A DNA stretch of 49,164 nucleotides from Candidatus Parvarchaeota archaeon (GTDB lineage: Archaea > Nanobdellota > Nanobdellia > CSSed11-243R1): assembly GCA_015522785.1 (NCBI GenBank), contig WALP01000004.1, forward strand, positions 1 through 49,164, read 5' to 3'. The notes beneath the pieces were generated by a model, which searched no databases, was not told where the DNA came from, and was given only the letters and a program-made list of their open reading frames with translations. The translations under genes and the position numbers were made by a program. How positions within the stretch are numbered: position 1 is the stretch's first letter; every line of letters starts with the position of its first letter. Below, piece after piece: positions 14,996 through 49,164 of the stretch.

Positions 14996-15955
14996 ATGGC
15001 AAAAGAGATATTGGACAAGATACAAGTAATTGATGAAGGTAACATAGACATACTCCTACTGGGAAACAAAATTGGATATATCCCATTGGCACTGCCTATA
15101 GATTCGACTATAAGTTGGGAGGTAAAGTGGGCATTTGCTAACGGAGTTGGGCCTTTAGAATCCTCAATTGATGATATAATGCGATTTATAGGAGTAAAGG
15201 ATGTATCACTTGAAGTTAAATTAAAAAGAGATGAATTTTATACAGATGTAAATATTGACAATAAACATATAGGGGAATACCATCTTGACGAAGTTTTAAT
15301 GTATCTATTCTCTCAAAAAACATCTATCTCATGCGAGAAAGATATATTAGCGACTGAGGATTATGACAAATACAAACAAGATAATATGAGCATACAAAAG
15401 ATATTCCAAAAAAAGAAAATACCCTATATACCTTTACCTAATAGATTAACAAAATTTGAAATAATTGATGTAACAAAAAATTATTTACTCTCTCCTACAG
15501 AGGAGCAGGATGATGATATTGAAAAGGAATTAGAATATGTTTTCCATTCAGAGAATGAAGATGGATATTCTATAGGACTCAGATACCCAGCTGAGGAAAC
15601 ACCAAATAGTGTGCTTCCTTTCCTTGAAAAGGAAGGCGTCCTTTCAAATGATGATATTTATATCCAAAAAAGTATGGGTGCATATTCCTCATTAAAGAAA
15701 ATATTGAAGAAGTATAATGTTGAAGTTAGTAGGGTTATATTCCACGACAAGCCAATACACAACTCGGGTAAACAGGTTTTCTTGCTGTCTAATATGCCAA
15801 CAGTCTCATTGGAGTTAGTAAAAGACAAAACTGTAAAAAGCTTTGTTGTGCCACACTACATTTACATGCCATTTGTACTCGAGAAAAAAGAATTTTACAT
15901 ACCTTTTATACCATCACACAAAAAAGTGAAAAACAATGACACAATGTACGCTTAA
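14996..15955 (+). CDS. Hypothetical protein, 319 aa
   Basis: Unrecognised, acidic, soluble protein (begins MAKEILDKIQVIDEGN). It appears mixed alpha/beta with no cysteine cluster, membrane helix or nucleotide-binding motif. A linker-like acidic stretch (PTEEQDDDIEKELEYV, about 168-183) divides it into two halves. The TATA box (ATTATTTAAAT, centre about 14970) lies 26 nt from the ATG, so the mRNA should be leaderless. Its stop overlaps that of the convergent TFE gene by 4 nt. It resembles the unknown ORF at 19717 in size and style but I see no clear sequence similarity. Function unknown. Confidence 0.75.
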   Translation: MAKEILDKIQVIDEGNIDILLLGNKIGYIPLALPIDSTISWEVKWAFANGVGPLESSIDDIMRFIGVKDVSLEVKLKRDEFYTDVNIDNKHIGEYHLDEVLMYLFSQKTSISCEKDILATEDYDKYKQDNMSIQKIFQKKKIPYIPLPNRLTKFEIIDVTKNYLLSPTEEQDDDIEKELEYVFHSENEDGYSIGLRYPAEETPNSVLPFLEKEGVLSNDDIYIQKSMGAYSSLKKILKKYNVEVSRVIFHDKPIHNSGKQVFLLSNMPTVSLELVKDKTVKSFVVPHYIYMPFVLEKKEFYIPFIPSHKKVKNNDTMYA

Positions 15956-19716: not shown

Positions 19717-20637
19717 ATGTATCTCAAAAGAGTTCCACCATTTAGATATATAGAAGAAACAATGGATGATTCTATAATTAATATGGGGAACGTTCCACTC
19801 TTATTGCTACCGGGGCATGAATCTGAATTCTATGGATTAAAGTGGTTCCCAATTAAAAATAATGTATTCCCCAAATTAGAAGATGTAGTAATGACTCCTG
19901 ATGTAAGAGAATTATTGTCCAACAACATCAGCCCTAACTTCACAATATCACAGATAGGCGAAGTAAAAAAAAGCAAAGACAGTGATAAAATAGAGGATTT
20001 GCTTGCAGTAGTGTGGATGGAATCTGATGTAAAACTTCCAGATGCGGACAAATCATTAAAATCAGATGCATATTTTGGTGGAAGAGCGTGGGTATTCAAT
20101 AAAAATGGACCAATTGCGTCCATATCTGAAGACCCCAAAAAAAGGGCGAGCTTGTTCACTTTTAGTGCAAACATACTTTATGTAAATGAAAGAATATATG
20201 TTGTGACAAAAGGTGAGATATGGGATGCCTCTAAAAATGATTATATACTCACAGGGAGAATAATGGAATATCCAACTATGAAAGATGTTTTTGGAAGTCC
20301 AAACACAATCCCCTATTTCTTAGGATGCTGTACTAGAAACAGAATATACATGCCACAATATGACTTAGAATACGGAGAGTACATATTTGAACATGACAAA
20401 GAGTCAAGAGAAAAAATGCTAATAGAAGATGACAAAGTTTATCTGTTAGTTGGCAAAGTAATTACAGATAATAGCAAGAGAAAAATAAAAATGGGATTTG
20501 TCGATGAAGATGGAAAATCCATTCTCGGATGGCATGATAAAATTGAATATTCTCCAAAAGAGGATTTAGTCAAGACATTCGACATCAAAAATGGGGAAAC
20601 AAAAATTAATACTCTTTCTGTAGAAGATACCATATAA
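19717..20637 (+). CDS. Hypothetical protein, 306 aa
   Basis: Unrecognised protein, beginning MYLKRVPPFRYIEETMDD. The start at 19717 is preferred because a TATA box (ATTTAAATA, centre about 19691) lies 26 nt upstream, the leaderless spacing seen elsewhere; the frame extends five codons further upstream from a TTG. The sequence appears beta-rich, with alternating hydrophobic strands and turns (GGRAWVFNKNGPIASISE, ILYVNERIYVVTKGEIWD, DDKVYLLVGKVITDN), suggestive of a propeller or beta-sandwich. There are no membrane helices. It follows lysS by 31 nt but has its own promoter. Function unknown. Confidence 0.75.
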   Translation: MYLKRVPPFRYIEETMDDSIINMGNVPLLLLPGHESEFYGLKWFPIKNNVFPKLEDVVMTPDVRELLSNNISPNFTISQIGEVKKSKDSDKIEDLLAVVWMESDVKLPDADKSLKSDAYFGGRAWVFNKNGPIASISEDPKKRASLFTFSANILYVNERIYVVTKGEIWDASKNDYILTGRIMEYPTMKDVFGSPNTIPYFLGCCTRNRIYMPQYDLEYGEYIFEHDKESREKMLIEDDKVYLLVGKVITDNSKRKIKMGFVDEDGKSILGWHDKIEYSPKEDLVKTFDIKNGETKINTLSVEDTI

Positions 20638-40982: not shown

Positions 40983-42737
40983 ATGAAAACACGCCAGCCA
41001 ATTATAACAGTAGTTGGACATATAGACCATGGTAAAACGACAATATTAGATGCTATTAGAGGCACCACCGTCGCGAGGAAGGAAGCTGGTGCTATAACAC
41101 AACACGTCGGTGCTTCAGAAATACCACTTGAAGTAATAAAGAAAATTTGTGGGAAGGCATTGGATTCAATGAATATAAAATTCACAATACCCGGACTTTT
41201 AATGATTGACACCCCTGGACACGAGGCATTTACAAATCTAAGAAAGCGTGGAGGCTCAATTTCAGATTTGGCGATTTTGGTGGTTGATATAAATGAGGGA
41301 TTCAAGGCACAGACAAGAGAAGCAATATCAATGTTGAAACAATTCAAGGTACCTTTTATAGTCGCAGCAAACAAGATTGATTTGATACACGGGTGGAAAC
41401 CACAAAAGACAATGTTTTTCTCCGAAAGCATAAAGCAGCAAATGGAACATGTTCAGCAGGAGCTTGACAACCAAATTTACAAGCTGGTAATTTCACTGTC
41501 TGATTATGGGATTGAATCCGAAAGGTTTGACAGAGTGGAAGATTACACAAAAAAGGTTGCGATAGTCCCTGTGTCAGGGATAACTAAGGAGGGGATTGGA
41601 GAACTTCTTATGCTCTTAACTGGACTTGCCCAAAGATTCCTAGAGGAAAAACTGAAAATTGAGGTAAGCGGTCCTGCAAAGGGAAGCATCCTTGAAGTAA
41701 AAGAAATTAAGGGGCTGGGGAAGACAATTGATGTAATTCTCTATGATGGAATTTTGAAAAAGGGAGACACAATTGTAATAGGTGGCATAGACGGACCTAT
41801 AGTCACAAAGGTCAGAGCAATATTGAAGCCTTCGCCTTTGAAGGAATTGAGAGAAAAGGGACAATTCCAATCTGAAAATGAGGTTTCGGCAGCGGCGGGA
41901 ATAAAAATCTCGGCGCCAAACCTAGACAATGCAGTCGCGGGAATGTCGCTTAGGGTTGCCAACACGAAAGAAGAAGTTGAAAGTGCAAAAGAGGAACTCT
42001 CAAAAGAAATAAAGAGCATCCTGTTTGAAAGGGAGGATGAAGGTGTAATCATAAAGGCGGACTCCGTCGGGGCGGTGGAGGCCCTCGAGGGTATGTTCAA
42101 GCAGATAAACCTCCCGATAAGAAAAGCGGGAATTGGAGGAGTAACCAAAAGCGACGTCGTCGAAGCCAAGCTCATGAAGGAAAAAAACAAGCTGCACGGC
42201 GTCATATTCGCGTTCAATATAGATGTCCCGAAAGATGTCAAGCAGCTGGCTGACGACAATGATATCCAAATATTTTCCGCCAACATAATTTACACCTTAT
42301 TTGAAAAATACAAAGAATGGAAGGAACAGCAGATAGAAGAAGAAAGGAGAATTGCAAACGAAAAGCTTGTTTGGCCCGGAAAAATAAAAGTTCTCAAAGG
42401 CTATATATTCAGGCAGAGCAACCCTGCAGTTGTGGGTGTCGAGGTTTTCGGCAGAATAAAAACAAAGGTGCGCCTCATAAGAAAGGACGGAAAGGAAGTC
42501 GGAGAGATAAAGGAAATCCAAAACGAAGGAAAGTCAGTTTCGGAAGCAAAATCCGGCGACAAAGTCGCTATTTCTATATCGAAGGGTGTTGTGGGAAGAA
42601 ATATCCACGAGGGCGACGAACTTTTCGTCTTCATTCCAAGAAGCCACCTTGAAATAATTGAAAGCAAATTCTCAAACGATTTGACGGACGAGGAGTTGAA
42701 AATCATTGAGGAATTCAAGGCAAGCCAGCGAAAGTAA
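40983..42737 (+). CDS. infB: Translation initiation factor aIF5B
   Basis: aIF5B is a GTPase that joins ribosomal subunits and places initiator tRNA. The 584-residue protein has G1 GHIDHGKTT (12-20), the switch II motif DTPGHEAF and NKIDLIHGW (G4), then domain II, the alpha/beta domain III (about 340-430) and domain IV (about 450-570) ending DLTDEELKIIEEF. Length fits archaeal aIF5B, which lacks the long bacterial/eukaryotic N-terminus. A TATA box (GTTTTTAAATC, about 40950-40959) lies about 28 nt upstream, so the mRNA may be leaderless. Its 3' half (about 41890-42720) uses noticeably more GC-rich codons than the 5' half. Confidence 0.97.
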   Translation: MKTRQPIITVVGHIDHGKTTILDAIRGTTVARKEAGAITQHVGASEIPLEVIKKICGKALDSMNIKFTIPGLLMIDTPGHEAFTNLRKRGGSISDLAILVVDINEGFKAQTREAISMLKQFKVPFIVAANKIDLIHGWKPQKTMFFSESIKQQMEHVQQELDNQIYKLVISLSDYGIESERFDRVEDYTKKVAIVPVSGITKEGIGELLMLLTGLAQRFLEEKLKIEVSGPAKGSILEVKEIKGLGKTIDVILYDGILKKGDTIVIGGIDGPIVTKVRAILKPSPLKELREKGQFQSENEVSAAAGIKISAPNLDNAVAGMSLRVANTKEEVESAKEELSKEIKSILFEREDEGVIIKADSVGAVEALEGMFKQINLPIRKAGIGGVTKSDVVEAKLMKEKNKLHGVIFAFNIDVPKDVKQLADDNDIQIFSANIIYTLFEKYKEWKEQQIEEERRIANEKLVWPGKIKVLKGYIFRQSNPAVVGVEVFGRIKTKVRLIRKDGKEVGEIKEIQNEGKSVSEAKSGDKVAISISKGVVGRNIHEGDELFVFIPRSHLEIIESKFSNDLTDEELKIIEEFKASQRK

Positions 42738-42775
42738 TTTAAACACAATACAGTTATAACAATTTGGTTGAAATT

Positions 42776-43219
42776 ATGAAACCAATAGATATTGACAGAT
42801 TACTACAACGTCTTAAAGGAGAAGTAACAGTAAGTGTGAAGACAACACCAAAACTAGTGCAGGAGATAAGCAAATACCTCGACCGCAATGGATTTTACAC
42901 GCGGGATTATGTTTTCTCAAGAGATTTATATGAGGTTATGGATTCCGACAGGTGGAGCGTACATGGTTTTTCAGATGGAGCTTACTACTCTCAGGAAAGA
43001 CTGAATAATATATTCAACCTGGAAATTCTTGCAAACGAAAAAAGCGCGCTGGTAATGAGGATGGACACAAAAGAAGCAACAGTCATACATTCCATAGACG
43101 AGCTTTCCCAATTTCTCGAAACAGACAAAGTGGATTATCTGGAAGGCGCGCCCGAACGATTGGCTCGCGCATTTGAGATAAACTACAAAGACGCGCTTCG
43201 CCCATTTGACTGCTTCTGA
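42776..43219 (+). CDS. Hypothetical protein, 147 aa
   Basis: Unrecognised soluble protein, beginning MKPIDIDRLLQRLKGE. It looks like a mixed alpha/beta fold with DGAYYSQERLNNIFNLEILANEKSALVMRMD, ending DALRPFDCF. I prefer the ATG at 42776; a TTG four codons upstream is possible. GGTTGAAAT precedes it. A TATA-like AATTTAAACAC lies 30-40 nt upstream. It shares no recognised domain with its neighbours, but stands beside the kinase-like gene and the unknown operon, all of similar AT-rich style. Confidence 0.7.
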   Translation: MKPIDIDRLLQRLKGEVTVSVKTTPKLVQEISKYLDRNGFYTRDYVFSRDLYEVMDSDRWSVHGFSDGAYYSQERLNNIFNLEILANEKSALVMRMDTKEATVIHSIDELSQFLETDKVDYLEGAPERLARAFEINYKDALRPFDCF

Positions 43220-43277
43220 AAGCAGAATAAATGGTATATGGCAATTTATCTAAACTAGATTTAGCTATAAATAGAAA

Positions 43278-43308
43278 CATTTATAAATAATTACTTTATA
43301 GTAGTAAC
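43278..43308 (+). promoter_or_regulatory. Promoter of the kinase-like gene with TTACT-type element
   Basis: ACATTTATAAATA is followed by TTACTTTATAGTAGTAAC (43291-43308), an imperfect palindrome. Related elements lie at 3398-3417 (inverted), 11106-11123 and 45216-45225, always just downstream of a TATA box. The GAGGT ribosome site follows it before the ATG at 43323. Confidence 0.5.
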
Positions 43309-43322
43309 AGGTGAGGTAAAAT

Positions 43323-44354
43323 ATGAATTTATTAAATCTCCTAAAAGGCGCTTACAAAAGATTATCCAGCGGGAGCGCCGAATATAATGGCATTTCTGAA
43401 CTAGTCGACGACATGTTTACGGGCATGAAGCAATTTGAGGGGGGAACAAACGGAACATACTCCAAAGTGTTCGGAGATGACAAATTTGTGTATAAAGTAT
43501 TTTATGATAGAGATGACTATAAGGGTATAAAAACCGCAAAAGGTTCATTTGAAAGAGAAATATACAACACACAACTGCTCGAAAAATACGGATTAAACGT
43601 TCCAAAAATAGTTGATGCCAAGAAAATTAAAACAAAAGCTGGAGATGTGTACATTATCACAAAGGAAAGAATTGAAGGGGAAAATCTTGAAGACTATTTA
43701 AAAGACACTAACACCCCAGAAAGCAAAAAAAGAGACGCTGTTTTGAAGGCAGTTGATTATATGTCAAAAATCCACGACATCCCCTCAAGAAAGGCGAAGC
43801 GCCAAAAGGGGCTTGAAACGCTTGTAAAAGACAGAGGATTGATACCCTATTTGGAAGGAGAAGAATCAAGCACAATCATATTTGACCCAAGGTTAAGCAA
43901 CTTTGTTTACAACTCGAAAACAAACGAGGTTTATCTTGTCGACACAGAAACGATTACAAAGGGAACGCCCTACCAGGATATAGGTTGGCTCTTGGGAGAT
44001 TTGTCAGAAATTGCCATTTACAATCCGAAACTGCTTGAAATGGAAGGATTGGTCATGGCGAAGTTCCTTGCGAAGCATCCGGCTAAAAGCTTAGCAGATG
44101 GAGTCAAAAAAATTGAGCAATTTAAGGACAATTACTTCAAAATGCCGAGGGAATCGAAGCTTGAAGCGTACAAAATGTTGATTGATGATACCGATCTCAA
44201 AAAAGATGAAGTCATATTGCCTATATCCTACTCCGAAATTGGAGAATTTGAATATACAAAAGATGATATGACAAGAACAAATCTCGGAGAAGTAAGCATT
44301 CCAAAAGGGCTAATCAAAACCACAAAAGAGAAAGCACTTGAAATTCTCGCCTAA
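43323..44354 (+). CDS. Atypical kinase-like (phosphotransferase-fold) protein
   Basis: The 343-residue protein resembles the protein kinase/aminoglycoside phosphotransferase fold. Visible features are a glycine-rich start (GGTNGTYSKVFG, about 39-50), a candidate ATP lysine (DKFVYKVFYD), a glutamate in SFEREIYNTQLL, a hinge (YIITKERIEGENLEDYL), a catalytic-loop-like FDPRLSNFVYN (about 188-198; HxDxxxxN here reduced to D...N), and VDTET, where DFG would be. The histidine of the catalytic loop is missing, so it is divergent and may be a pseudokinase. Its target is unknown. GAGGT precedes the ATG. Its stop overlaps that of the convergent regulator by 4 nt. Confidence 0.65.
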   Translation: MNLLNLLKGAYKRLSSGSAEYNGISELVDDMFTGMKQFEGGTNGTYSKVFGDDKFVYKVFYDRDDYKGIKTAKGSFEREIYNTQLLEKYGLNVPKIVDAKKIKTKAGDVYIITKERIEGENLEDYLKDTNTPESKKRDAVLKAVDYMSKIHDIPSRKAKRQKGLETLVKDRGLIPYLEGEESSTIIFDPRLSNFVYNSKTNEVYLVDTETITKGTPYQDIGWLLGDLSEIAIYNPKLLEMEGLVMAKFLAKHPAKSLADGVKKIEQFKDNYFKMPRESKLEAYKMLIDDTDLKKDEVILPISYSEIGEFEYTKDDMTRTNLGEVSIPKGLIKTTKEKALEILA

Positions 44355-45178
44355 AGAAGCGACCAGTTAAGCAAAGTTCTTTCAATTATCTTAACTTGAA
44401 GGAATAATACTTTATCTTCTATTTTCTTCTTTACTGCGGATATCTCTTGAGCCAAGCCGAAATCCTTTTTCTTTATGAATTTCATAAGCATGTCCATAAC
44501 ATTAACAGATTGCTTTATGTCATTAACATCAACTTTTTCTTTAACAATCCAATCAGCCATCTCTTTAGCGGAATACAGGATTTGTAACATATCAAAAACT
44601 TCCGAAGAAGAAAATTTAAACCCGCTTATAAGAAATGGCTTTCTTAAAAGTGAGGTGTACATCCTTTGAAAAATAAGCATATTAAAAATATACTCCCTTC
44701 TGTATTCTTTGGCATCAGAATGTTCGCCGTACTCAATTGACAAAATTGCTTTTTTTACCCTTTGAAGAATTAGTTCCCACAAATCTTCCGGAGGCAAAAA
44801 TCCGGGAGGTATCTTGAAAGAAATCTCTCTTTCATCAAAATCAATTATATATTGGCTTAATCCCCTATTGATCAATTCTTTATTTAATTTTGAGCGAGTT
44901 TTGTTTTCCAACCCCTTTTCAAAAAGTATTCTAAACTCGTCATATCCATCTACATACAACGCTGCAACGTTCCGTATCACAAAATCCACATCTAAGGATT
45001 TTACCACTAAATCCTTTTTCAGTGATACCTCCTTTTCCAAGCCCACTGGGGAAATTTCAAGAATACCAAGCGGAGTAACCTCAAGTTTTACTTCTTTTCC
45101 ATTAATTTTCCTTGCCCAGTCCACAGGAAGGTAAACTGAGTATGAGTTCCCCGATTTTTGCAGTTTTTTAATTACCAT
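44351..45178 (-). CDS. AbrB-domain/PhoU-like regulator
   Basis: The 275-residue protein begins MVIKKLQKSGNSYSVYLPVDW, the AbrB/SpoVT-type DNA-binding strand pattern of archaeal PhoU-related regulators (about 1-45). The rest (about 55-270) is helical, PhoU-like, with DFVIRNVAALYVDGYDEFRILFE and late helix IKKKDFGLAQEISAVKKKIED. PhoU-like proteins usually connect phosphate supply to gene control, but no phosphate transporter is nearby. I chose 45178 because the conserved AbrB motif starts at once; an upstream ATG adds seven residues. It is divergent from the unknown operon and shares its promoter interval, so it is a candidate regulator of it. Confidence 0.85.
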   Translation of the reverse strand: MVIKKLQKSGNSYSVYLPVDWARKINGKEVKLEVTPLGILEISPVGLEKEVSLKKDLVVKSLDVDFVIRNVAALYVDGYDEFRILFEKGLENKTRSKLNKELINRGLSQYIIDFDEREISFKIPPGFLPPEDLWELILQRVKKAILSIEYGEHSDAKEYRREYIFNMLIFQRMYTSLLRKPFLISGFKFSSSEVFDMLQILYSAKEMADWIVKEKVDVNDIKQSVNVMDMLMKFIKKKDFGLAQEISAVKKKIEDKVLFLQVKIIERTLLNWSLL

Positions 45179-45204
45179 ATATAAGTATATACAATACATA
45201 CATA

Positions 45205-45242
45205 ATATATAAATTTTACTGTATAGTTACTACTTACAGATA
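45205..45242 (+). promoter_or_regulatory. Promoter of the terminal operon with shared elements
   Basis: ATATATAAA is followed by TTACTGTATAGTTACTAC (45216-45233) and, overlapping it, GTTACTACTTACAGATA (45226-45242). The first resembles 43291-43308; the second matches 30414-30430 at 15 of 17 positions. Predicted transcription starts near 45235, leaving a short leader with GGGTGATAAAA before the ATG at 45266. Binding by the divergent AbrB/PhoU protein is possible but untested. Confidence 0.5.
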
Positions 45243-45265
45243 ACAAAAGTAAGTGGGTGATAAAA

Positions 45266-45679
45266 ATGGAGTATAAATCAAAACTTAAGGAATATGGAAA
45301 GCTATTTGCTGCAAGTACAGGGATGGCAATAGATTTTTGGGGTTGGCTTTATGAATCAGCGTACGTAGAGGCAAAGTATTCAGTTCGTAATTTAGATGAG
45401 ATTAAGAAACATTCTCCAGAGTATATTCCAAAAACAATAGGCGGTGCTGCAAGTTTGTCCATAAATAAAATAGACAGCTCAGAACATGGAAAAACCCTTT
45501 CATTGGCAGCTGGTTATGTTGGAGGACTTTCACTTGTAGCTATTTCTCTACCAACACTACCAATATGGCTATTAACTGCAACTGCAGACGGTGTTTATAA
45601 TTCAGTTAGATTAGCAAGAAAAGTATACAAGGAACACAAAGAGAAAGCAAGCACACTTGAAGAGGTTGTAGGTGGGTGA
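45266..45679 (+). CDS. Hypothetical membrane-associated protein (operon gene 1)
   Basis: Unrecognised 137-residue protein beginning MEYKSKLKEYGKLFAAS. A hydrophobic stretch of about 28 residues (about 77-104: AAGYVGGLSLVAISLPTLPIW) predicts one or a re-entrant membrane helix, followed by a basic tail (RLARKVYKEHKEK). The start at 45266 is set by GGGTGATAAAA; the upstream GTG frame is an artefact of that site. Its stop TGA forms part of the ribosome site for the next gene. First gene of the terminal operon, with its own promoter. No homology I can name. Confidence 0.75.
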   Translation: MEYKSKLKEYGKLFAASTGMAIDFWGWLYESAYVEAKYSVRNLDEIKKHSPEYIPKTIGGAASLSINKIDSSEHGKTLSLAAGYVGGLSLVAISLPTLPIWLLTATADGVYNSVRLARKVYKEHKEKASTLEEVVGG

Positions 45680-45684
45680 TAAAA

Positions 45685-46356
45685 ATGAGTTTATCAGGTT
45701 TGCTCAAAAAGTCATTTCATAATGTATATCATAATAATACATTCAGAGGGCAATTGAGATGGATACTAAATGGTAGCAGCCTAAATATAGATGACACATT
45801 ATATACTCAGTATTATAGTAACCCTAATGATTGTCGCCCAGAACTACCGGAAAAAATAATCAAAGGGGAAATAAAGAGCAAGAGAAGACAAAAAAGAGCA
45901 ATAGATGTATTCGCGAAATCAAAAAATCCAGATTACCGCATAGCATTGGTAGATATTATCGAAAGTCCATTCATAGAAGATGATGAGACTAAAGAATATG
46001 CTCGACAGGCAATTGAGAAATCACCCTTAGAGTACATTTGGAGAGATATAAACAATATTAAAGGAGATAGCGCATACCTTCCTGGAGGTTATTTATCTAA
46101 GATTGTAAGACACATAAAACCAAATGTTGCTAGGCAATTAATTAGTTCAGCAGTTTCAAGGAAGGAATTCTATAAGGTAGAACCTACACTAAAATCAGAG
46201 CACATAAAAGAAGAAAATGGAAAGATAATAGTTGACGCCGCAATTGAATACTATGAGAATGGAGTTCCCCAATGGTTTTTAGACCAAATTCAAAATCAAA
46301 AGATTAGAGATTATGCCATAAAGAAAATTCGGCAAAGGGGTGATAAAAATGTTTGA
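45685..46356 (+). CDS. Hypothetical, possibly HEAT-like helical protein (operon gene 2)
   Basis: A 223-residue protein beginning MSLSGLLKKSFHNVYHN that I do not recognise. It is helical and basic in parts (KSKRRQKRAIDVFAKS), with spaced helices (NPDYRIALVDIIESP, ETKEYARQAIEKSPLEY, VARQLISSAVSRKEFY) that resemble HEAT-type repeats. There are no membrane helices, cysteines clusters or catalytic motifs. GGGTGATAAAA precedes the ATG; the gene overlaps the next by 8 nt. It is likely a scaffold or binding protein in the operon, by inference only. Confidence 0.72.
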   Translation: MSLSGLLKKSFHNVYHNNTFRGQLRWILNGSSLNIDDTLYTQYYSNPNDCRPELPEKIIKGEIKSKRRQKRAIDVFAKSKNPDYRIALVDIIESPFIEDDETKEYARQAIEKSPLEYIWRDINNIKGDSAYLPGGYLSKIVRHIKPNVARQLISSAVSRKEFYKVEPTLKSEHIKEENGKIIVDAAIEYYENGVPQWFLDQIQNQKIRDYAIKKIRQRGDKNV

Positions 46357-47473
46357 AAACCTCGCTAATATGTTAAAAAGAAATAAGCATGAAGACAATA
46401 GAACAATTGATGATATAATCCAAGAGGATTACAAAAACAGCAGTGGTATATTCTTCATAGGTGGAAAAGATGTGTACCTAGAAAAAGGTACTAAATTATA
46501 TGGAGGTCCGCATGATAAAATAATTGGCAATATTGAGGAACTTTCAGTTGGCAATGCTTTACTAACAAAAGATAGAAACAGCATGGCATATCTCACTAAA
46601 GATGGAGATATTGTTTACGGCAGGCACCAATTTATTGATGATTTTCGAGGTGGTGAGATTGATATAGATGGTGTACATGTCATAAGAGCTGGAGACGGTA
46701 AATCAGTCAACCTCTATCTACCAAATGGAGAAATATATCCAGAATATGGTGGAAAACATGAAATCGTTGAAGGATTCATGGAAACACCCGAAGGTGAGAA
46801 TGTTCTTATTGCAAAAGATGATGGAAAATACAGGATGTATCTCAAAGATGGAGATATATACCCATTTTATGGTAAACATCACGATTACATACGTGAGTTT
46901 AGGAAAGTTAATGGAGTTGACATGCTTCTTGCGCATGATAGTGACAAATACATATTTTGGACAAAGGATGGAAAAGCGATGTACCCGAGTAAAGAATATC
47001 CTGATGGGTTCATTGGAGATTTATTGTATGTCTCACCCTATCCATCAATTCTAAGGGGTGCAAAAATAAAGCTCATTGATAAAAATGGAAGAATTGTTTA
47101 TTCAGGGAAAGAAGATAGCACTTATGTTACTGATGCAATAAAGACAGATGATGGGTATCTAATTGAGATTAATGATGGAAAATTGTATATTAATACCAGA
47201 GGCAAATTAGATTGGACAATAAGAGATGGTATAGACAACCACAAAAAGGCAATTAAAGAAAACGAAAAGAAGAGGCTGCTCTCTAAAATTGTTTCCAATC
47301 GATTTACTGGAGCTGGAATCGCTTTAGGGGGCACTCTTATAATGCCTATCACATACGAACTTGGTGCTGCATTATTTCTTGCGGGCATATCCCAATCATT
47401 AATTGCAACTGAAATGTATCAACCCCAACCTCCAGGTGGGAGAATAGAATATTTAGTTAAGAAAGGTGATTAA
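46349..47473 (+). CDS. Hypothetical beta-repeat protein with C-terminal membrane hairpin (operon gene 3)
   Basis: The 374-residue protein has repeating units from about 35 to 290, each with a strand, a [KP]xG[DEK] turn and an aromatic pair: LTKDGDIVYGRHQFIDDF, LPNGEIYPEYGGKHEIV, LKDGDIYPFYGKHHDYI, TKDGKAMYPSKEYPDGF and DKNGRIVYSGKEDSTYV. This suggests a beta-propeller or WG-like repeat. Residues about 318-352 (TGAGIALGGTLIMPITYELG) predict one or two membrane helices, then a tail ending VKKGD. GGGGTGATAAAA precedes the ATG. No catalytic motif is apparent. Possible role as a membrane-tethered sensor or adhesin-like domain facing the cytoplasm; orientation and function are unknown. Confidence 0.75.
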   Translation: MFENLANMLKRNKHEDNRTIDDIIQEDYKNSSGIFFIGGKDVYLEKGTKLYGGPHDKIIGNIEELSVGNALLTKDRNSMAYLTKDGDIVYGRHQFIDDFRGGEIDIDGVHVIRAGDGKSVNLYLPNGEIYPEYGGKHEIVEGFMETPEGENVLIAKDDGKYRMYLKDGDIYPFYGKHHDYIREFRKVNGVDMLLAHDSDKYIFWTKDGKAMYPSKEYPDGFIGDLLYVSPYPSILRGAKIKLIDKNGRIVYSGKEDSTYVTDAIKTDDGYLIEINDGKLYINTRGKLDWTIRDGIDNHKKAIKENEKKRLLSKIVSNRFTGAGIALGGTLIMPITYELGAALFLAGISQSLIATEMYQPQPPGGRIEYLVKKGD

Positions 47474-47474
47474 T

Positions 47475-48107
47475 ATGATTAATCGAAAAAAACTCAAAGA
47501 ATATGGGTTAACTCCAAAATACGAAAACTCAGGACGAATATCCGGCAGACGTGCATGGTATAATACCTACTCTAGAATGGGGTATTACAATGATAAAGTT
47601 ATATCCCTTGAAGAGAGGATAGATGGAATAAAACCAGATGAAATAGATGATATATGCAAGAATTCGTTAGGTTACAAAAAAGATGGCAAACCTGCAGTTT
47701 TATTTAAAAATAAAGAAGGACGAGTGATGTCCATTATAAATGGAGAAACCCCAAAAGAAGCAACATTGGAAGACCTAACTTTAGCAGAAAAACAATTCTC
47801 AAAAAGAGGAATCTCTTCGCATATAGGTAACATAACTTATGGTATAATGACAGGGACACTCTTTATGAGTAGTGCAACATCTATGATGTATGGGATATAT
47901 AAGATAGTGTCAGAGTCATCTCTACAAAATGCAGCTATAGGTGGTGTTGCAATAGCTTTAGGTGCAGTAGGCGCATTCATAGACATGGCCCTTTCGGATA
48001 TTAGAAGGTACAAGGACATCCCAATAGGCAATTCATATTTTGATAAAAAAGAAAAGATTGATGAGTTGATATCCAAGGGAAAAAGACAAGTTGGATTGAT
48101 TAGGTGA
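47475..48107 (+). CDS. Hypothetical protein with two predicted membrane helices (operon gene 4)
   Basis: Unrecognised 210-residue protein. A soluble N-terminal part (1-115; includes YKKDGKPAVLFKNKEGRVMSI, a beta pattern like that of the neighbouring operon proteins) is followed by hydrophobic segments at about 117-145 (HIGNITYGIMTGTLFMSSA) and 152-175 (AAIGGVAIALGAVGAFIDMAL), then a basic tail. The start at 47475 is preceded by GGTGATTAAT, with the previous stop inside it. The layout (soluble beta domain, C-terminal hydrophobic hairpin, charged tail) recurs in genes 3, 4 and 5 of this operon. Confidence 0.74.
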   Translation: MINRKKLKEYGLTPKYENSGRISGRRAWYNTYSRMGYYNDKVISLEERIDGIKPDEIDDICKNSLGYKKDGKPAVLFKNKEGRVMSIINGETPKEATLEDLTLAEKQFSKRGISSHIGNITYGIMTGTLFMSSATSMMYGIYKIVSESSLQNAAIGGVAIALGAVGAFIDMALSDIRRYKDIPIGNSYFDKKEKIDELISKGKRQVGLIR

Positions 48108-48112
48108 TTAAA

Positions 48113-48664
48113 ATGTTAAAAAAAAGAAACTATGAAGAAAAAATCGCACGGCAGGTTTACAAAAAAGGAGAAACCCCACAGAGTATACTTTATGACCCAA
48201 TTGAAAAAATAGGAAAAGTTATAACTTCGAGTGGTTATGAAATGCCAGTTTACAAAGGAAGATTGATTGGTACCAAATTTGACAAAGTTTATTGGAATCA
48301 AAAAGACAAATGTATATTCTGTAACACTTTTGCTGGATACTCAAATGGCAAAAAAGAAGTGTATTATATGAAAGGTAAAAAAGCAGTAAATGTTAATTCA
48401 CAAGATTACAGCAAACTGGTTGAATCGTTAAGAGACCCATTACCTATGAAACTCACACGTATTGGCACAGGAGCTACAATGATGGCAATAAACATAGCAG
48501 CAGCAGGATTGAGTATAACACAACCAGATGTCTTCCCACCCCAGCATGCCATAATCTTACCATTTGGAACTTTTTACCTTAGTTTACTGCCAATATATAT
48601 GTTATCTAAATATTTTGAAGAATGCGAAGAAAGTGATATTGAGAAAATTATAGAGAGGGGTTAG
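48113..48664 (+). CDS. Hypothetical protein with two predicted membrane helices (operon gene 5)
   Basis: Unrecognised 183-residue protein. The N-terminal 100 residues look beta-rich (GKVITSSGYEMPVYKGRLIG, CIFCNTFAGYSNGKKEVYYM), with one CxxC pair (CIFC) that could bind metal or form a disulfide. Hydrophobic segments at about 121-140 (GTGATMMAINIAAAGLSI) and 148-168 (AIILPFGTFYLSLLPIYMLS) form a likely membrane hairpin, followed by an acidic tail. GGTGATTAAA precedes the ATG, overlapping the stop of gene 4. Function unknown. Confidence 0.74.
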   Translation: MLKKRNYEEKIARQVYKKGETPQSILYDPIEKIGKVITSSGYEMPVYKGRLIGTKFDKVYWNQKDKCIFCNTFAGYSNGKKEVYYMKGKKAVNVNSQDYSKLVESLRDPLPMKLTRIGTGATMMAINIAAAGLSITQPDVFPPQHAIILPFGTFYLSLLPIYMLSKYFEECEESDIEKIIERG

Positions 48665-48665
48665 T

Positions 48666-49164
48666 ATGAAAAAAATATTTGAAACCGAAGAGTATAGTTT
48701 GTATTTAATTCCAATAGAAAATACATTAAAGACGCTTGCGGAAAAAGGATTAGAAATTGCAACTCCAGGAGACATTGCAAGAGCAAGAAAAGAAGGATTT
48801 AATTACAAATATGGCGGGTTTGTAGATGCAAGCATAGCATATACGCCTAGTGGTAGCTACATAATCTCAAAATTAGATGATGGGCTTGTTGAATCCAAAG
48901 AAAGGTATAGAAAGTTGGATGAAAATGAAATTTCAAATCTAGAAAAGTTAGCAGAAAAAGGCGAAATACTAAAAACTAACAGATTTGGAGCGAAGGAAAT
49001 AAAAGTCAATGAGCTTGAGGGGGACGAAATTTTAAAATTTCTTTTCAAAGAAGAATTGGAAACATATAAAAATTTCTTAGAAGAAAAAGATGTAGATTCT
49101 ATTAGATTGGCACTTCTGAAAAAATCAGAAGTCAAACATTTTGGAGGCAATATTGTCTACGGAG
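48666..49164 (+). CDS. Hypothetical protein, runs off window end (operon gene 6)
   Basis: The frame from ATG 48666 stays open to the end of the window, giving at least 166 residues beginning MKKIFETEEYSLYLIPIENT. It looks soluble, helical and rich in Lys/Glu, with a central beta-like GGFVDASIAYTPSGSYIISK segment and no membrane helix in the visible part. GAGGGG lies just upstream, and the preceding gene ends 1 nt before. The true end and any further operon genes are outside the window. Unrecognised. Confidence 0.72.
   Translation, partial: MKKIFETEEYSLYLIPIENTLKTLAEKGLEIATPGDIARARKEGFNYKYGGFVDASIAYTPSGSYIISKLDDGLVESKERYRKLDENEISNLEKLAEKGEILKTNRFGAKEIKVNELEGDEILKFLFKEELETYKNFLEEKDVDSIRLALLKKSEVKHFGGNIVYG

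Follow-up and report, generated by a model that had tools for sequence, protein, structure and literature searches.

A candidate accessory island with a kinase–regulator core between infB and rpS6e in a nanoarchaeal genus

Which genes belong together, and what for, is the question raised by a compact gene run at the end of a 49,164-nt stretch of Candidatus Parvarchaeota archaeon DNA (GCA_015522785.1, contig WALP01000004.1). This stretch, hereafter the window, is one whole contig (C2) of a 578,669-base assembly in 30 contigs (G000). The run starts at position 45266, past the translation gene infB and beside a kinase gene and a divergently transcribed regulator gene. The first-pass annotation proposed that its products form one conserved membrane-bound complex. 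Comparison with related genomes does not bear this out, as a search of 93 genomes found genes 1, 2 and 4-7 in the window's own genome alone, and only gene 3 is shared with a second species of the genus, G002. We favor another reading, to which we give roughly an even chance: the locus would be a variable accessory island, in which a fixed control core and changeable cargo are switched jointly and the kinase acts within the same system. On the sequences compared, the kinase, the regulator, the promoter region and gene 3 form the core, the cargo differs between the two species, and a third congener is without the island.

The infB–rpS6e site across the family

Both infB and rpS6e could be placed in six family genomes, the window's own included. 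In the latter, the gap between them spans ~7 kb and contains an open reading frame (ORF) of 147 amino acids (aa), the kinase, the regulator and genes 1-7. In G002, the kinase, the regulator and gene 3 share the gap with another ORF, of 144 aa, and the region is divided between the ends of contigs C3 and C9; the contig carrying gene 3 is JAGGYW010000013.1 from Nanoarchaeota archaeon isolate AUK188. The joined contig ends align to window positions 45149-45248, at 84% across the join. C3 and C9 are therefore taken as neighbors, which places gene 3 directly past the promoter in G002; genes 1 and 2 separate the two in G000 only. The site is empty in another member of the genus (G001), where ~105 bases without any gene separate infB from rpS6e, and in a further family member (G003), where the two genes are adjacent at ~170 bases. 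In G005, the infB contig ends inside the S6e gene, directly past infB. The gap of G004 contains one 109-aa ORF (L026:1716-2045).

The kinase was found in two of 57 relatives and in 2/378 genomes of the class, and the same two carry gene 3 by profile search of the 378. A single-sequence search of the 57 genomes with gene 3 adds a weak match in a third genome (E = 0.003), and the regulator has strong matches among the 57 in the same two only, with one weaker match in G010 and two in G043. Identity of G002 to the window is 52-54% for the kinase, 54% for the regulator and 42-45% for gene 3, and the 3' ends of kinase and regulator overlap in both species (window, 4 bp; G002, 20 bp). Genes 1, 2, 4, 5, 6 and 7, the 147-aa ORF and the G002 ORF gave self-matches only among the 93 genomes; for genes 1, 2, 4, 5 and 7, the absence of relatives was established with one concatenated query, whose first pass gave 0-8 candidates per genome. 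Gene 6, searched alone, had two weak matches in the 57 genomes (best E = 6e-4). No relatives of genes 1, 2, 4 and 5 were found in viral-contig scans. Against plasmids, the kinase had no match, and gene 3 alone matched only cyanobacterial WD40-type proteins. The expectation that the operon stays together in relatives thus holds in part: G002 keeps the kinase, the regulator, the promoter region and gene 3, and since it has another ORF in place of genes 1, 2 and 4-7, gene 3 is the sole syntenic operon member, the rest of the operon showing no synteny.

Gene order and products of the operon

The features of the locus are as follows (window coordinates, strand, description).

40983..42737, +, infB (aIF5B), left island boundary, present in 6/6 family genomes; the island begins past its stop
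42776..43219, +, 147-aa ORF (P0010), no family match, without counterpart in G002, self-match only
43300..43308, -, operator-like GTTACTACT, flanked by a TATA-like box and the kinase start, with a related site ahead of the kinase in G002
43323..44354, +, APH-type kinase (P0009), core, PF01636 profile match
44351..45178, -, AbrB-like regulator (P0008), core, transcribed toward the kinase gene, weak MazE/AbrB profile match
45179..45265, no strand, predicted divergent promoter/operator region, 70/82 aligned columns identical to G002
45226..45234, +, operon copy of the operator-like GTTACTACT, G002 counterpart GTTACCACT
45266..45679, +, gene 1, 137 aa, hydrophobic stretch ~77-106, self-match only
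45685..46356, +, gene 2, 223 aa, helical repeat with alpha-solenoid-like model, self-match only
46349..47473, +, gene 3, 374 aa, core, propeller-like domain by model and C-terminal hairpin
47475..48107, +, gene 4, 210 aa, soluble N-terminus and hydrophobic hairpin ~129-173
48113..48664, +, gene 5, 183 aa, soluble N-terminus and hydrophobic hairpin ~117-165, self-match only
48666..49164, on to L003:173, +, gene 6, 201 aa in all, cut by the contig end
L003:179-583, gene 7, directly after gene 6

The six ORFs from 45266 are present with spacings of +5, -8, +1, +5 and +1, and this tight co-directional packing agrees with the operon first proposed; its true gene count is seven. The contig end falls inside gene 6, and the last 66 bases of the window overlap the start of contig C22 (L003) at 95% identity. 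On C22, gene 6 continues to 173, gene 7 occupies 179-583 and rpS6e 726-1154, so that the rest of gene 6, gene 7 and then rpS6e lie beyond 49164, a point the first-pass annotation had left for follow-up. The overlap contains three differences, each at a third codon position of gene 6, and the 21 residues encoded are identical on both contigs, which suggests two strains or variants of a translated gene 6 in the sampled population. The recurrent ribosome site noted earlier is well supported, with GGTGATAAAAATG occurring three times in the window, at genes 1-3 only (0.00 expected, 100 shuffles), and once more at gene 7; genes 4 and 5 carry close variants. Codon scores were not used as coding proof because an alternative frame equals or outscores the true one in genes 2 and 3. 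Scans for bacterial-type promoters and terminators gave results no better than chance (29 vs 25.3 and 4 vs 3.7).

Searches of Pfam, NCBIfam, PHROGs and PADLOC agree with the initial view that the proteins are unrecognised, as only the kinase passes a curated cut-off and the rest have weak matches or none. By profile, the kinase is a member of the APH phosphotransferase family (PF01636, E 7.1e-6, 26.4 bits against a cut-off of 23.2); its G002 orthologue alone reaches 18.8 bits, under that cut-off. The kinases of both species keep the D-x4-N and D-x-E pattern, which we take to be the APH family motif. In PADLOC, the kinase weakly resembles PD-T4-6 (E 0.001).

Four proteins were expected to contain membrane segments, and Kyte-Doolittle hydropathy, the only method applied to this point, indeed finds hydrophobic segments towards the C-terminus in genes 1, 3, 4 and 5, the first segment being weak in genes 3 and 4. 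By the same measure, none is present in genes 2, 6 and 7, in line with the soluble character proposed for gene 6, which was assessed without its last 35 residues. A layout of beta-rich domain plus hairpin had been assigned to genes 3-5; hydropathy predicts the hairpins in all three, and a beta-rich domain is predicted for gene 3, the one of the three that was modeled. An AlphaFold2 model of gene 3 built from two sequences (mean pLDDT, the predicted local distance difference test score, 62.7 and mostly 68-91 over residues 21-230; pTM, the predicted template-modelling score, 0.56) shows successive beta blades to ~281 and helices at 293-318 and 336-354, its last part being of low confidence. Among WD40 propellers, the gene 3 profile hits 2ymu at E = 1e-25, a value that its repeats inflate. 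Foldseek retrieves propellers as well (E = 3e-7), with a template-modelling (TM) score below 0.3 and a root-mean-square deviation (rmsd) of ~10 or more for most rows, and VIA-align gives Z of at most 6.2 (rmsd 8.2, 212 aligned). Gene 3 is thus modeled as a beta-propeller-like protein of repeated beta blades with a C-terminal hydrophobic hairpin.

Gene 2, described as HEAT-like at first reading, yields an all-helical repeat model from a single sequence (mean pLDDT 73.9) with Z up to 8.9 against helical repeats in VIA-align; these resemblances are not significant (best Foldseek E 0.064), and the protein is best described as solenoid-like by its model. The best Pfam matches of gene 4, phage holin (E = 0.008) and SLATT_6 (E = 0.033), are below cut-off and lie mainly over the hairpin; assignment as a SLATT effector fails both in Pfam (14.2 bits vs 27.1) and in NCBIfam (13.7 vs 100). 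Paralogy among genes 1-7 was considered and rejected, as all-against-all phmmer, hhalign and shuffled Smith-Waterman comparisons were positive only for gene 3 and its G002 orthologue, the best other pair in the shuffled comparison being genes 3 and 5 (z = 2.4).

A second inserted block, L003:1595-5961 on C22, separates rpS6e from aIF2-gamma, genes that are adjacent in G002. It comprises a surface-type protein of 1165 aa, whose C-terminus looks nuclease-like by eye, and a 286-aa neighbor, with no Pfam match. The pair is possibly an intermicrobial toxin with its partner, and the translation cluster would carry two insertions. In addition, the window contains two ORFs of ~300-320 aa between housekeeping genes at 14996-15955 and 19738-20637, with no Pfam match at E up to 0.1.

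The regulator, its promoter region and its wider family

Both the regulator and the kinase adjoin the operon in the window and are kept in G002, consistent with the dedicated regulator beside a kinase-like protein that was initially described. Of the AbrB/PhoU assignment of the regulator, only the first half has a match, and a weak one: the AbrB/MazE match has E 0.004 and 17.5 bits against a cut-off of 24.7, and relatives of P0008 in G043 pass that cut-off with 31.6 and 29.3 bits. For PhoU, neither P0008 (E up to 1) nor P0015 (E up to 0.1) had a listed match.

The divergent intergenic region is 85% identical between the window and G002 (70/82 columns, 9 gap columns). This is the highest value in that comparison, in which infB reaches 79%, the kinase 74%, and the regulator and gene 3 71% each. 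The 9-base GTTACTACT has two copies in the 49 kb, one before the operon and the other, inverted, before the kinase, with 0.19 expected. G002 has GTAACTACTATTTAGTAGT at the same place before its kinase and GTTACCACT before the operon.

The regulator family occurs in 202/378 genomes of the class. A neighbor survey covered 46 regulators at 44 loci, picked from the best-scoring matches in the 202 genomes, and found a convergent kinase or kinase-like neighbor for four of the 46 (the window and G002 by profile, both of G043 by catalytic-loop pattern). The pattern also matched the window regulator, L094 and L114, which was taken as chance. At L049:2012-4000 and L050:3402-5009, G043 encodes two long proteins that share 30% identity and a kinase-like catalytic loop, and an AbrB-like regulator gene converges on each; of these two regulators, the one on C10 is transcribed divergently from the gene of an 88-aa protein that contains a hydrophobic stretch. 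Profiles of the two kinase pairs, from the island and from G043, align weakly though in register (E = 0.042, probability 1.2%), and A5 gave no PDB match at E up to 5. The idea that convergent kinase and regulator drive, from a single conserved promoter, exchangeable hairpin cargo varying between species and perhaps inside populations, as a new type of swappable conflict or signalling cassette of which G043 would have the same layout with other kinase-like proteins, is in our view quite unlikely. The four kinase-paired regulators rank 1, 2, 4 and 11 of 46 in closeness to a contig end on the cargo side, in a ranking that is post hoc, with two of the four in one genome and with fragmentation varying between genomes; such contig ends give a hint that the cargo could be strain-variable. 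Near A/V-ATPase subunit I genes, AbrB-like regulators of other nanoarchaeal genomes are found at L079, L083, L086, L090, L094 and L109. All six long membrane neighbors tested are subunit I, so a common context of the regulator family differs from that of the island.

Alternative readings, meaning and known systems

Under the favored reading, the regulator would bind GTTACTACT-type sites before the kinase gene and the operon and switch both together, and the strong, uniform ribosome sites would provide for coordinated cargo synthesis. The soluble domains may face the cytoplasm, with the propeller as sensor or scaffold, the helical repeat as scaffold and the hairpins in the membrane, while the kinase may alter the state of the cargo proteins, or of a small molecule, through phosphorylation. 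The hairpin proteins could then be membrane-acting effectors in biological conflict, antiviral or anti-competitor. Such a role is suggested by the turnover of the cargo; it is the least certain step, possible yet doubtful. Several observations weigh against the accessory island. Three of 100 shuffles also reach two copies of GTTACTACT, the G043 parallels consist of motif and position only, and PADLOC, searched at E up to 0.1, has no match for genes 1-7. No foreign base composition marks the locus as transferred (GC content 35.2% vs a window average of 36.8%), so recent transfer is not shown. Moreover, the core is present in two genomes only, so variable cargo rests on one comparison, and G000 is estimated to be only 68.8% complete.

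The same evidence bears on the other explanations. A fixed membrane-bound complex of all six or seven products would fit the tight operon, its uniform ribosome sites and the four proteins with hydrophobic segments, but with gene 3 as the only operon gene common to the other island-bearing genome it is very improbable. The main alternative to the accessory island is a symbiosis or cell-contact module, in which hairpin and propeller proteins would make up a structure attached to the membrane and used with a host cell, the cargo varying with that host. Nanoarchaeal lineages are commonly host-dependent, and both the small genome of this lineage and the membrane-associated products predicted here agree with such a module. 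However, inspection by eye reveals neither a signal peptide nor a long extracellular domain in genes 1-7, and the two-segment hairpin makes a cytoplasmic location of the soluble domains more likely; we consider this module unlikely.

Insertion at one site with both flanking genes kept, together with ORFs that have no relatives, could also point to what is left of an integrated virus or another mobile element. A repeat search covered 42700-49164 and L003:1-1300, each contig by itself. This origin appears improbable, as no relatives were found in seven viral-contig scans or in phage DNA, no recombinase among the ten proteins scanned against Pfam, and no PHROGs match better than E 9e-4, while the core is kept with its promoter in a second species. 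We judge equally improbable a toxin-antitoxin-like pair, with the kinase as toxin, the AbrB-like protein as antitoxin and repressor and the operon as passengers. The MazE/AbrB-like N-terminus of the regulator and its adjacency to the kinase in both genomes are in line with such a pair, but the two genes are convergent and share no operon, and passengers would leave unexplained why the cargo promoter is the most conserved part.

Many genes of DPANN archaea have no assigned role. A known site that combines a fixed core and a conserved switch with changeable cargo would offer a handle for finding such systems, and the infB-rpS6e gap is readable in every genome of the genus. PMC12988326 describes few recognised restriction-modification and CRISPR-Cas systems in DPANN archaea. 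If the conflict role is true, a compact kinase-controlled membrane system would be added to archaeal immunity; if it is wrong, the locus still shows new gene families entering a reduced genome with the translation cluster unbroken.

The locus was not found in the titles and abstract openings of the literature searched, and its parts can be compared with known systems. The island kinase resembles the APH family (PF01636) in scoring above the profile cut-off and in keeping the catalytic pattern; it is the only member of the island that belongs there, and no close solved relative was found. P0008 probably belongs with archaeal regulators that have an AbrB domain and an extended C-terminal part; the six membrane neighbors tested elsewhere are subunit I, whereas at the island they are a kinase and a cargo operon. 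Predicted conflict systems with APH kinases, propellers, HEAT repeats and SLATT two-transmembrane effectors, as described in PMC7159879, have an overlapping parts list (APH kinase, propeller, helical repeat, membrane hairpins). They differ from the island, where no MoxR, vWA or GTPase family is listed among the ten proteins scanned and gene 4 is below the SLATT cut-off. Finally, like the hotspots of accessory and defense genes at core genes (e.g., PMC10250203), the island places variable genes between conserved neighbors; unlike them, it appears to keep its control core and promoter fixed while the cargo differs.

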